From NCBI GenBank assembly GCA_009885795.1, contig VFKA01000033.1:1-46333 (forward strand): 46,333 nucleotides of DNA, in the 5' to 3' direction. Positions 4,092-10,253 of this stretch are shown one piece after another (the first letter of the stretch is position 1; the number at the start of each line of letters is the position of its first letter). This stretch comes from Rhodospirillales bacterium. GTDB taxonomy: Bacteria > Pseudomonadota > Alphaproteobacteria > Dongiales > Dongiaceae. The notes under the pieces are model-generated. The model was not told where the DNA came from and did no database searches. It worked only from the letters and a program-made list of their open reading frames with translations. Position numbers and translations under genes: made by a program.

Positions 4092-4901
4092 TATTTCGGT
4101 GACAGTGCACTTAATTGACTCCTCGGCGCCCCGCGCCTAGTCTCGCGCCATGGCCCGCCTCGCCCGCCTCGTCGTTCCCGGCCTGCCGCATCATGTGACC
4201 CAGCGCGGCAACGGCCGGGCGCGCACGTTCTTCGGCGACGACGACTACGCGCTTTATCGCGATCTCCTGGGCGAGAGTTGCCTTGCGGCCGGCGTCGAGG
4301 TCTGGGCCTGGTGTCTGATGCCCAATCACGTGCATCTCATCCTGGTCCCCGCCGACGCGGACGGATTGCGCCGCGCGCTGGCCGTGGCGCACCGGGCTTA
4401 CGCCGGCGCCATCCAGGCCCGGCGCAAGCGCACGGGCCATTTCTGGCAGGGCCGGTTCGGTTCGGTCGTGCTGGACGAGGAACACTTGGCGGCGGCGGTC
4501 CACTATGTGTCGCTGAACCCGGTGCGGGCGCGTCTGGTCGACCGGCCCGAGGCGTGGCGTTGGTCGAGCGTCCGTGCGCATCTTCATGGCAAGGATGACG
4601 GTCTGACGACGCCGGGACCCGTGCGGGAGCGGTACGCGCCGTTCCGTGCTTTTCTCGAGCGGCCCCCGGCACAAGATGCCGAGACGCGGCTGCGCGCCGC
4701 CGAACGTGTCGGCCGCCCGCTGGGCGACGATTCCTTTCTCGCGCGGCTGGAGCGGCAGGCCGGGCGAAAGCTGCGACCCGGTAAGCGCGGCCCCAAGCCT
4801 GTCCTCGGGCCGGCCCTTGGCCGGACCCGGGGGCCGCGCCGGTCGACCCGCGCCGGGACGTCACGCCGGGACGAAGATTAATTAAGTGCACTGTCACCGA
4901 A
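4092..4901 (+). mobile_element. Y1-transposase (RAYT/IS200-like) element with terminal inverted repeats
   Basis: The element is bounded by a 25-base left arm (4092-4116) and a 22-base right arm (4880-4901). They are perfect inverted copies over 22 bases, sharing the core GGTGACAGTGCACTTAATT. The only gene between them is a Y1 transposase. The same arms occur around 10096-10181 without a gene. The right arm overlaps the transposase stop codon and contributes the apparent start codon of the next gene, ctaA. No target-site duplication was evident, which agrees with single-strand Y1 transposition. Confidence 0.85.
4150..4881 (+). CDS. REP-associated tyrosine transposase (Y1_Tnp, IS200-like)
   Basis: 243-residue Y1 HUH-type transposase of the RAYT kind. 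The N-terminus MARLARLVVPGLPHHVTQRG is the family opening. The metal-binding HUH motif is H60-V61-H62 within MPNHVHLI, and the catalytic tyrosine is Y119 in AVHYVSLNPVRARLV. These enzymes cut and rejoin single-stranded DNA at hairpin ends and are usually linked to short palindromic repeats. Residues 150 onward form an extra helical, strongly basic C-terminal part (GKRGPKP and Arg-rich end) that may bind DNA. The stop codon TAA (4879-4881) overlaps the right inverted repeat. Catalytic residues are intact, so it may be active. Confidence 0.92.
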   Translation: MARLARLVVPGLPHHVTQRGNGRARTFFGDDDYALYRDLLGESCLAAGVEVWAWCLMPNHVHLILVPADADGLRRALAVAHRAYAGAIQARRKRTGHFWQGRFGSVVLDEEHLAAAVHYVSLNPVRARLVDRPEAWRWSSVRAHLHGKDDGLTTPGPVRERYAPFRAFLERPPAQDAETRLRAAERVGRPLGDDSFLARLERQAGRKLRPGKRGPKPVLGPALGRTRGPRRSTRAGTSRRDED

Positions 4902-5932
4902 TTACGGTCTGGCTGCTGATTTGCGCGGGCATGATCGCGGTCATGGTCGTGATCGGCGGCGTCACGCGTCTCACCGAATCCGGGCTGTCGATCACCGAAT
5001 GGCGGCCCCTTGGCGGAATCTTGCCGCCGCTGGGCGAGGCCGATTGGCGGCACCTTCACGATCTCTACCGCCAGACGCCTCAGTATAAGCAACTCAACGC
5101 CGGCATGACGCCGGCCGAATTCAAGACGATCTTCTGGTGGGAGTATGTGCATCGGCTGTGGGGCCGGCTGATCGGCCTCGCCTATGCACTGCCCTTCCTG
5201 TGGTTTCTCGCGAAGCGCCGGATTCCTGGGCGTCTCGGCCCGCATCTCTGGGCCATCCTCGGCCTCGGCGGCTTGCAAGGGCTGGTCGGCTGGCTGATGG
5301 TCGAGAGCGGACTCGCCGACCGGCCCAGCGTCAGTCAGTACCGCCTCGTCGTCCACCTGCTGCTGGCGCTGATCATCTATGCCTATATCCTGCGCATCGC
5401 CTTCGCGCTCATGCGCCCGGCGGCATCGCGACCGCCAGGCTCGCGACGCCTGCGCGCCGCGCTTGCCGGGGTGACGGCGCTGGCCTTCGCGACCATCGCC
5501 ATGGGCGGGTTCGTGGCCGGTCTCGACGCCGGCTTCATCTACAATACCTTTCCGCTGATGGGCGGGCGCCTGGTGCCGGGGGATCTCCTGGCGCTCTCGC
5601 CGTCATGGCTCAATCCGTTCGAGAACCCGGCGGCGGCGCAGTTCGCGCATCGCTGGCTCGGCATTCTCCTCACGACATCCTGCGTGGTCCTGTGGGCGGC
5701 GGGCCGCCGGGCCGGTCTCGCGCGAAACGAGATCGCGGCGGTCGCCGGGATGGCGGCCGTCCAAGCGGCGCTCGGGATTGCCACGCTGGTTCTGGTCGTC
5801 CCCATACCCTTGGCCGCGGCGCATCAGGGCGGCGCGGTCATATTGCTGGGCTTGCTGCTCTGGGCCTGGCACGCGGCCGGCCTGCCCGGCCAGGATGTCA
5901 GTCCGGTTTACAAGCGCCAGGGGCCGCGCTAG
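4886..5932 (+). CDS. ctaA: Heme A synthase (CtaA/COX15), N-terminus altered by adjoining mobile element
   Basis: Integral membrane monooxygenase that converts heme O to heme A for aa3-type cytochrome oxidase. About eight membrane segments are visible. The four heme-ligand histidines expected in the family are present: H89 in WWEYVHR, H157 in YRLVVHLLL, H255 in QFAHRWLG and H313 in AAHQGGA. The family motif GGVTRLTESGLSITEWRP lies near residue 25. The only upstream in-frame start is GTG at 4886, which is inside the right inverted repeat of the transposase element. The native N-terminal ~10-15 residues appear replaced by MHCHR. An ATG at 4931 is the next start but would cut into the first helix. 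Whether the gene is still expressed well is uncertain. Confidence 0.9.
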   Translation: MHCHRITVWLLICAGMIAVMVVIGGVTRLTESGLSITEWRPLGGILPPLGEADWRHLHDLYRQTPQYKQLNAGMTPAEFKTIFWWEYVHRLWGRLIGLAYALPFLWFLAKRRIPGRLGPHLWAILGLGGLQGLVGWLMVESGLADRPSVSQYRLVVHLLLALIIYAYILRIAFALMRPAASRPPGSRRLRAALAGVTALAFATIAMGGFVAGLDAGFIYNTFPLMGGRLVPGDLLALSPSWLNPFENPAAAQFAHRWLGILLTTSCVVLWAAGRRAGLARNEIAAVAGMAAVQAALGIATLVLVVPIPLAAAHQGGAVILLGLLLWAWHAAGLPGQDVSPVYKRQGPR

Positions 5933-9992: not shown

Positions 9993-10032
9993 CGCGACCG
10001 ATCGGCGCTCTCCCGCAGCCTGTGTTGAATTC

Positions 10033-10095
10033 ATATTTCGGTGGAATTCATATTTCGATATTTCGGTGGATATTTCGCGATATTTCGGTGACAGA
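10033..10095 (+). repeat. Ladder of partial copies of the inverted-repeat tip
   Basis: The octamer ATATTTCG occurs at 10033, 10050, 10058, 10070, 10080 and 10095. Four copies continue as GTG and two as GTGACAG, matching progressively more of the inverted-repeat arm at 10096-10120. A shorter mirror-image series (TTTCGG and TATTTCGGG on the reverse strand) follows the right arm at 10181-10197. It looks like repeated partial duplication of the element end. Confidence 0.75.
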
Positions 10096-10181
10096 TATTT
10101 CGGTGACAGTGCACTTAATTCAGCGCCGGCGCACGAGGCGCGTAGTCGCGATCCTCAATTAAGTGCACTGTCACCGAAATA
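10096..10181. mobile_element. Miniature (non-coding) derivative of the Y1-transposase element
   Basis: Two perfect 25-base inverted arms (10096-10120 and 10157-10181) share the core GGTGACAGTGCACTTAATT with the ends of the transposase element at 4092-4901. They enclose only 36 bases. The spacer (CGGCGCACGAGGCGCGTAGT...) resembles the sequence just inside the left end of the transposase element (CGGCGCCCCGCGCCTAGT...). This suggests it arose by internal loss from such an element and could be moved in trans by the transposase. Confidence 0.8.
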
Positions 10182-10253
10182 CCCGAAATACCGAAAACTT
10201 GAGCAGCGCGGAATAGCATCGCCTCGGTGAGCGCGGCTGGAGCCGCGGCCCGG

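Follow-up and report, generated by a model that had tools for sequence, protein, structure and literature searches.

A probable TIRYT-family miniature element in a Rhodospirillales genome and the truncated tandem copies outside its arms

The closest described relatives of the locus reported here are TIRtrons, in which a RAYT-like HUH tyrosine transposase (TIRYT) sits between long inverted repeats (Di Nocera et al. 2013, PMC3733652). According to the parts of that paper drawn on here, the repeats of TIRtrons in some organisms also occur elsewhere as singles, dimers and groups, and large REP clusters are repeated in tandem along with variable lengths of flanking DNA. Related enzymes are grouped in TnpAREP subclass 2.1, to which the available sections of Corneloup et al. 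2018 (PMC6006769) assign 291 of the 292 RAYT group 1 sequences of Bertels 2017. The way in which RAYT-like proteins spread repeats has been described, in the sections available, as poorly understood. Neither the chemistry nor the mobility of a TIRYT is tested in the portions of the TIRYT and TnpAREP literature consulted, and our literature searches returned no report of a TIRYT cutting arms such as these. Our locus lies in a window of 46,333 nt, the whole stretch of DNA that was analysed, from a Rhodospirillales bacterium. Like a TIRtron it has a RAYT-like HUH tyrosine transposase between long inverted repeats, and these repeats are found elsewhere as singles, dimers and groups. Its arm, GGTGACAG, is one mismatch away from GGGGWSAS, which the same parts of PMC3733652 give as an optional motif of some TIRs only.

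The transposase unit occupies 4092-4904. Its left arm (4092..4116, + strand, assigned by sequence comparison) and right arm (4880..4904, - strand) form terminal inverted repeats of 25 nt that are 96% complementary, and the transposase gene (4150..4881, + strand) encodes 243 aa with HVH at residues 60-62 and a tyrosine at 119; H60, V61, H62 and Y119 are invariant in all 12 aligned transposase sequences. A profile search finds a Y1_Tnp domain (1.9e-7), and the NCBIfam model REP_Tyr_transpos gives 69.2 bits, under its 80-bit cut-off. Solved relatives are weak by sequence alone (best E 0.05). The predicted model of the protein (pLDDT 84) has as its best match, and closest solved fold, E. coli TnpA-REP (4er8; Z 16.2, rmsd 2.6, 153 aligned), ahead of IS608 (Z 10.2), and thus predicts a RAYT/IS200 fold. 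This predicted fold and the long inverted repeats together argue that the unit, set against the description in the parts of PMC3733652 used here, is on its sequence a TIRtron with a TIRYT and not a GTAG-REP system.

Seven matches to the transposase protein are present in its own genome, and of the transposases found there with these arms the window copy alone is intact; the pieces lying near such arms in C80 and C89 are transposase fragments. Among 11 transposase units with these arms, the arm core lies 52-55 nt before the ATG in 10 and 117 nt before it in the eleventh (L104). The same genome also holds same-superfamily transposases with other inverted repeats or end motifs, namely GGGGTCAG (L033, L034), GGGGACAC (L036) and GGTGACGGTATATAATT (L032, which has one internal stop). 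A GC-rich inverted repeat at 4794-4839, in the 3' part of the window's transposase gene, has seven short matches of 87-95% in two relatives (G004, G008). At its right border the unit meets COX15: the GTG predicted to start the downstream COX15 frame (4886-5932) lies inside the right arm, with a stop just upstream (4880-4950 region). In all eight relatives inspected the COX15 frame is open further upstream, in some with a plausible ATG 20-odd residues earlier, so the insertion of the unit seems to have replaced the start of this gene.

The miniature element lies at 10096-10181 and consists of a left arm (10096..10120, + strand), a 36-nt interior (10121..10156, no strand) and a right arm (10157..10181, - strand), the arms being assigned by comparison with the ends of the transposase unit. 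The two arms are inverted copies of each other, perfect over 25 nt and 96% identical over 28 nt. A reading made beforehand from the letters alone (the sequence-only reading) had noted that they match the ends of the transposase unit; they have the same sequence as its left arm and agree with its right arm at 24 of 25 positions. The 19-nt arm core occurs four times in the window and in none of 100 shuffles. No Rfam family reaches its gathering score in the window.

We regard the element as very probably a miniature member of the TIRYT family. As judged from its ends, it is most likely non-autonomous and mobilised in trans by the 4092-4904 transposase or a relative of it. The sequence-only reading had proposed such a trans-mobilised derivative, and a non-autonomous element of this kind is supported: the ends are the same, the unit is of the RAYT superfamily and the element is one of many. 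An origin by internal deletion is not supported, since the similarity of the interior to the unit falls short of significance; an interior taken from the parent unit is typical of miniature elements but not required. Its claimed resemblance to the sequence just inside the unit's left end amounts to a score of 23 against a shuffled mean of 19.1 (sd 3.2), a value reached by 13% of shuffles. An arm-anchored comparison gives p = 0.12, with two mini-element interiors of another genome (G063) scoring higher. At p of about 0.12-0.13 the resemblance is not significant, and we do not retain the element as an internal deletion of this unit.

The arms belong to a family with many copies in the genome. 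With up to 3 mismatches the 19-mer arm core has 37 matches there and its reversed control none. The 15-mer TTCGGTGACAGTGCA is found at 33 exact places, counted by hand, and at 85 places with up to 3 mismatches as against 32 for the reversed control. The arms occur singly, as inverted pairs, in clusters and at the ends of transposase units or remnants. Beyond this genome their spread across the Alphaproteobacteria is, as read from sequence matches, patchy. An arm 17-mer is present in 3 of 61 genomes (the own genome and 60 relatives) and absent from all 16 genomes of the same family; the exact arm 15-mer is present in 11 of 385 genomes of the class, the own one included. We take this class to be the Alphaproteobacteria because one of its genomes, G532, agrees in contigs and places with the named genome G061. 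A titled scan for the arm gave 26 stretches, all from Alphaproteobacteria by label or genus, some of the genera being ones that we take to belong to that class. The TIR pattern AATTGGGGACANTATACATATT was met in one of 398 genomes, namely the own one. In a plasmid collection, relatives of the transposase occur in 27 of 72,556 records, and the mini-element as query gave one weak match, in Caballeronia (E 0.8, query 45-77, mostly interior).

An unexpected feature of this family, absent from the sequence-only reading, lies outside the arms. In the window, the intact left arm is preceded at 10027..10095 (+ strand) by five truncated tandem copies of the arm together with flank bases, read from the sequence (junctions of locus L010). 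The arm is cut at nt 9 in the copy at 10027-10043, at nt 6 in 10044-10057, at nt 9 in 10058-10068, at nt 6 in 10069-10077 (not a clean junction) and at nt 12 or 13 in 10078-10093. Outside the right arm (10182..10197, - strand) there is one truncated copy with a clean junction and possibly a second, more decayed one. Each copy consists of a few flank bases plus the first bases of the arm and is sited outside the intact arm. Across the family, 59 of 170 outermost arm ends carry at least one extra copy of the arm's first six bases within 45 nt outward, a seed that is found in 0.4% of shuffled flanks.

Of 182 adjacent seed pairs that we read, 100 form clean tandem junctions, with an overlap of 0-4 nt, and the remaining 82 do not. 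A cut at a multiple of 3 nt is possible in 91 of the 100 clean junctions, and the other two phases fit 43 and 23, ambiguous junctions fitting more than one. Where the arm part is up to 16 nt long, 84 of 94 junctions allow a cut at nt 6, 9 or 12, a count in which the requirement for a six-base seed favours cuts at 6. A cleaner measure is obtained by restricting the set to junctions without microhomology and past nt 7, which leaves 37, and 29 of these are in phase (18 at 9, 8 at 12 and 3 at 24), the other phases having 2 and 6. With an arm part of at least 8 nt, 56 of 65 junctions fit, whereas 2000 simulations in which cuts were placed uniformly gave 35.6 (sd 3.8, maximum 48); in all of these counts the junctions of one array are not mutually independent. 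A 3-nt step is not proven by these figures, because the cuts at 6, 9 and 12 coincide with purine-purine steps of that stretch of the arm.

The other side of the junction is less regular. In 75 of 84 resolved junctions the host-side start falls 1-4 nt beyond the outer side of the ATTT of the arm, and its first base shows a mild bias towards G (42 of 78, against 111 of 342 alternative positions); no dinucleotide rule for it emerged among 45 unambiguous junctions. In 37 of 84 junctions the restart base is the same as the arm base that would have come next. Repeats across the inner border were seen at 15 of 167 ends and are, by eye, whole or near-whole arm units that begin outside, so that fresh units appear to arise at the edge of the intact arm.

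Similar patterns were found in a further 38 ends, drawn from 8 genomes, for which one core mismatch was allowed; about three G054/G055 ends among them overlap the first set. Copies are present at 12 of the 38 ends, 14 of 24 junctions are clean, 12 of these 14 fit the phase, and 5 of the 7 without microhomology past nt 7 are in phase. By eye, similar copies also lie at other TIRYT ends of the own genome, at GGGGTCAG (C89) and GTGACGGTATATAATT (C6, C5), and the other GGGGTCAG ends inspected in that genome are without them. Of seven plasmid transposase loci, three have clear inverted repeats (L267, L268, L269); two of the seven show copies, again by eye: L269 (Pseudoalteromonas) at its right end, and L266 (Skermanella rosea), in which no pair was found, next to its left motif. 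The other five have none.

To these observations we give a reading in two parts, a TIRYT-family miniature element and truncated copies made by the transposase, and we put the probability of this whole explanation at roughly 0.6. In this reading the transposase probably causes the copies. Related enzymes form a 5'-phosphotyrosine link and leave a free 3'-OH (PMC8266576, in the parts consulted). In our scheme the transposase would recognise a single arm, nick the DNA a few bases outside it and remain attached to the 5' end. Extension of the free 3' end would follow, copying the flank bases and the arm's first 6, 9 or 12 nt (sometimes all of it), and the extended end would be rejoined to the linked 5' end. 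Each cycle would leave one short tandem unit outside the intact arm and would need neither microhomology nor a partner arm. This exact order of nicking, extension and rejoining we put forward tentatively. The broader proposal, that TIRYTs write quantised tandem copies of the start of their own ends by repeated nicking, extension and rejoining, with one 24-nt arm as the minimal active unit, may prove right, and we hold it with similar reserve.

One alternative concerns the element itself, and on it the mini-element would be two separately inserted single arms around host DNA, the interior being target sequence. We compiled 121 arm clusters after removal of repeats (118 from 15 genomes, 3 from the G054 and G055 loci). 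Within a genome the interiors are mostly unrelated, which speaks against a miniature element amplified from a master copy and suits two independent arms, as do the conserved arms and the existence of single ones. Separate insertion of arms would also suit the end of rplC in the own genome (C23; L003 about 1163-1243, G000:C23), where three tandem arms in the same orientation lie in frame, lengthen ribosomal protein L3 by about 30 residues and move the stop onto the rplD start; in 15 relatives searched, the junction is visible in 14 and the arms are in none of these. However, in the 50 inverted pairs that these clusters hold, the core-to-core spacing is 48-60 nt in 28. A few pairs of mini-elements do have a common interior (6 of 97 within-genome pairs, one of which, L204 and L205, is possibly one place at two contig ends).

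A comparison that bears on this alternative comes from another genome than the window's (G069), where the region of a mini-element was matched in 13 of 16 genomes and 7 were inspected at the junction. Six of the seven lack the element, and in them two neighbouring genes overlap at that place (ATGA, by eye); in G069 these genes are separated by the element with its interior, one truncated copy and another 18 bases. None of the six has a counterpart of the interior, which is not target DNA, because the adjoining genes of the relatives leave no room for it. Movement as a whole unit is thus supported, on sequence comparison, at this one empty site. A suggestive point in the other direction is a mini-element interior of G065 that shares 16 of 17 nt with the sequence at a relative's lpdA stop, but this match arose after three sequences had been inspected, and a shuffle reached 28 against its score of 29. 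We consider the two-arm explanation unlikely and keep the mobile miniature element as the preferred reading. The seventh relative at the G069 site (G062; L305, G062:C26) carries a different insertion with inverted repeats.

A comparison at L108 met no empty site at its mini-element; at about 5781-5885 of that locus (G070/G627) lies another kind of repeat, roughly 105 nt long, which matches tens of places in G627 and a larger number in its relative G533. Direct repeats of 29-68 nt (score at least 26), far longer than the usual target duplication, flank 6 of 108 elements tested (113 in total): L151, L162, L019, L160, L187 and L210. In L187 the repeats are 49 and 96 nt away from the element, and in L160 the left one is at a distance of 137 nt. 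In a same-locus random control, whose draws may span these elements, 2 of 400 draws reached 36 and 42, and a cross control was confounded by overlapping loci (118 and 230). With 6 of 108 elements so flanked, long target duplications were rejected as a general feature. Separately, at L300 894-2577 (G065:C14) a 1.26-kb insertion, which contains a gene and has a mini-element at its right end, lies between the copies of a 213-nt direct repeat (98%); the matching place in G770 and G771 lacks this insertion.

A second alternative leaves the movement of the element to the transposase and attributes the truncated copies to replication slippage at a hairpin into which the inverted arms would pair. In general, hairpins are known sites of duplication, and the whole mini-element folds into one, with a stem of 25 bp (z about -11), because its two arms are complementary. 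Taken by itself, the window arm forms no stable structure (-0.4 and -0.2 kcal/mol, z about 0). Slippage of this kind needs an arm pair, yet single arms bear copies as often as pairs do (13 of 32 and 37 of 100 ends, respectively; Fisher p 0.83), which speaks against it; here a single arm is one with at least 6 mismatches to an inverted partner in the 160 nt inside it, and the 32 include some ends that belong to transposase remnants. Copies are also present at 5 of 14 degenerate pairs and 2 of 8 contig-edge cases, and less often, 2 of 16, at the ends of transposase units. Slippage usually needs homology as well, but the clean junctions have a microhomology of 0 nt in 48, 1 nt in 47 and 2-4 nt in 5, and the cut points are quantised. 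The one-base class, at 47 of 100, is above the roughly 28 expected by chance, and pairing may therefore play some part. Overall slippage fits worse than nicking by the transposase, and we hold it to be quite improbable.

The sequence-only reading had also called the element a REP/BIME-like hairpin containing GTAG. The tetranucleotide is indeed there, at 10142-10145 in the interior, but carries no apparent meaning: GTAG or CTAC is found in 4 of 50 mini-element interiors against 3.4 expected by chance and is not part of the arm sequence, and the unit fits a TIRYT. That we are dealing with an ordinary REPIN or BIME of a GTAG-recognising RAYT, for which inverted pairs, clusters and a RAYT-fold transposase could be cited, can be set aside as highly improbable, there being no GTAG rule, no folding of the single arm and a REP_Tyr_transpos score short of the cut-off.

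If the transposase makes the truncated copies, they may be a natural record of strand cutting and rejoining, and the recorded sites would then predict cleavage positions. At the borders of genes the copies would represent a novel source of tandem repeats, of which the altered end of L3 is a possible case, and, within the literature searched, an undescribed way of making such repeats. Among the matches listed from the RAYT, TIRYT, REPtron and TnpAREP literature, most subscription journals lying outside this scope, no title or abstract opening describes truncated outward copies, nor does any listed in a literature text search with GGGGTCAG; a text match to GTGACAGTGCAC was unrelated.

Compared with the known systems, the truncated outward copies set our locus apart from the TIRtrons of PMC3733652, in whose main text, as far as it was covered, we found no mention of them and the terms 'duplication' and 'target site' occur 0 times. 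With TnpAREP subclass 2.1, as presented in the available sections of PMC6006769, it shares a long protein with a C-terminal extension and the lack of a REP hairpin near the gene. The extension characteristic of that subclass is helix-turn-helix-like. For our protein a Pfam search with E up to 10 gave no match beyond Y1_Tnp; the predicted model places helices between residues 141 and 204 and has low confidence at residues 222-242. The E. coli TnpAREP with its REP/REPIN sequences (4er8; PMC8266576, in part) resembles our system in fold, HUH motif and tyrosine, and differs in that the window system has neither a GTAG rule nor a single-arm stem-loop. The quantised, outward, truncated tandem copies are the part for which we found no description, and the system to which they belong, a TIRYT with dispersed ends, is of a known kind.
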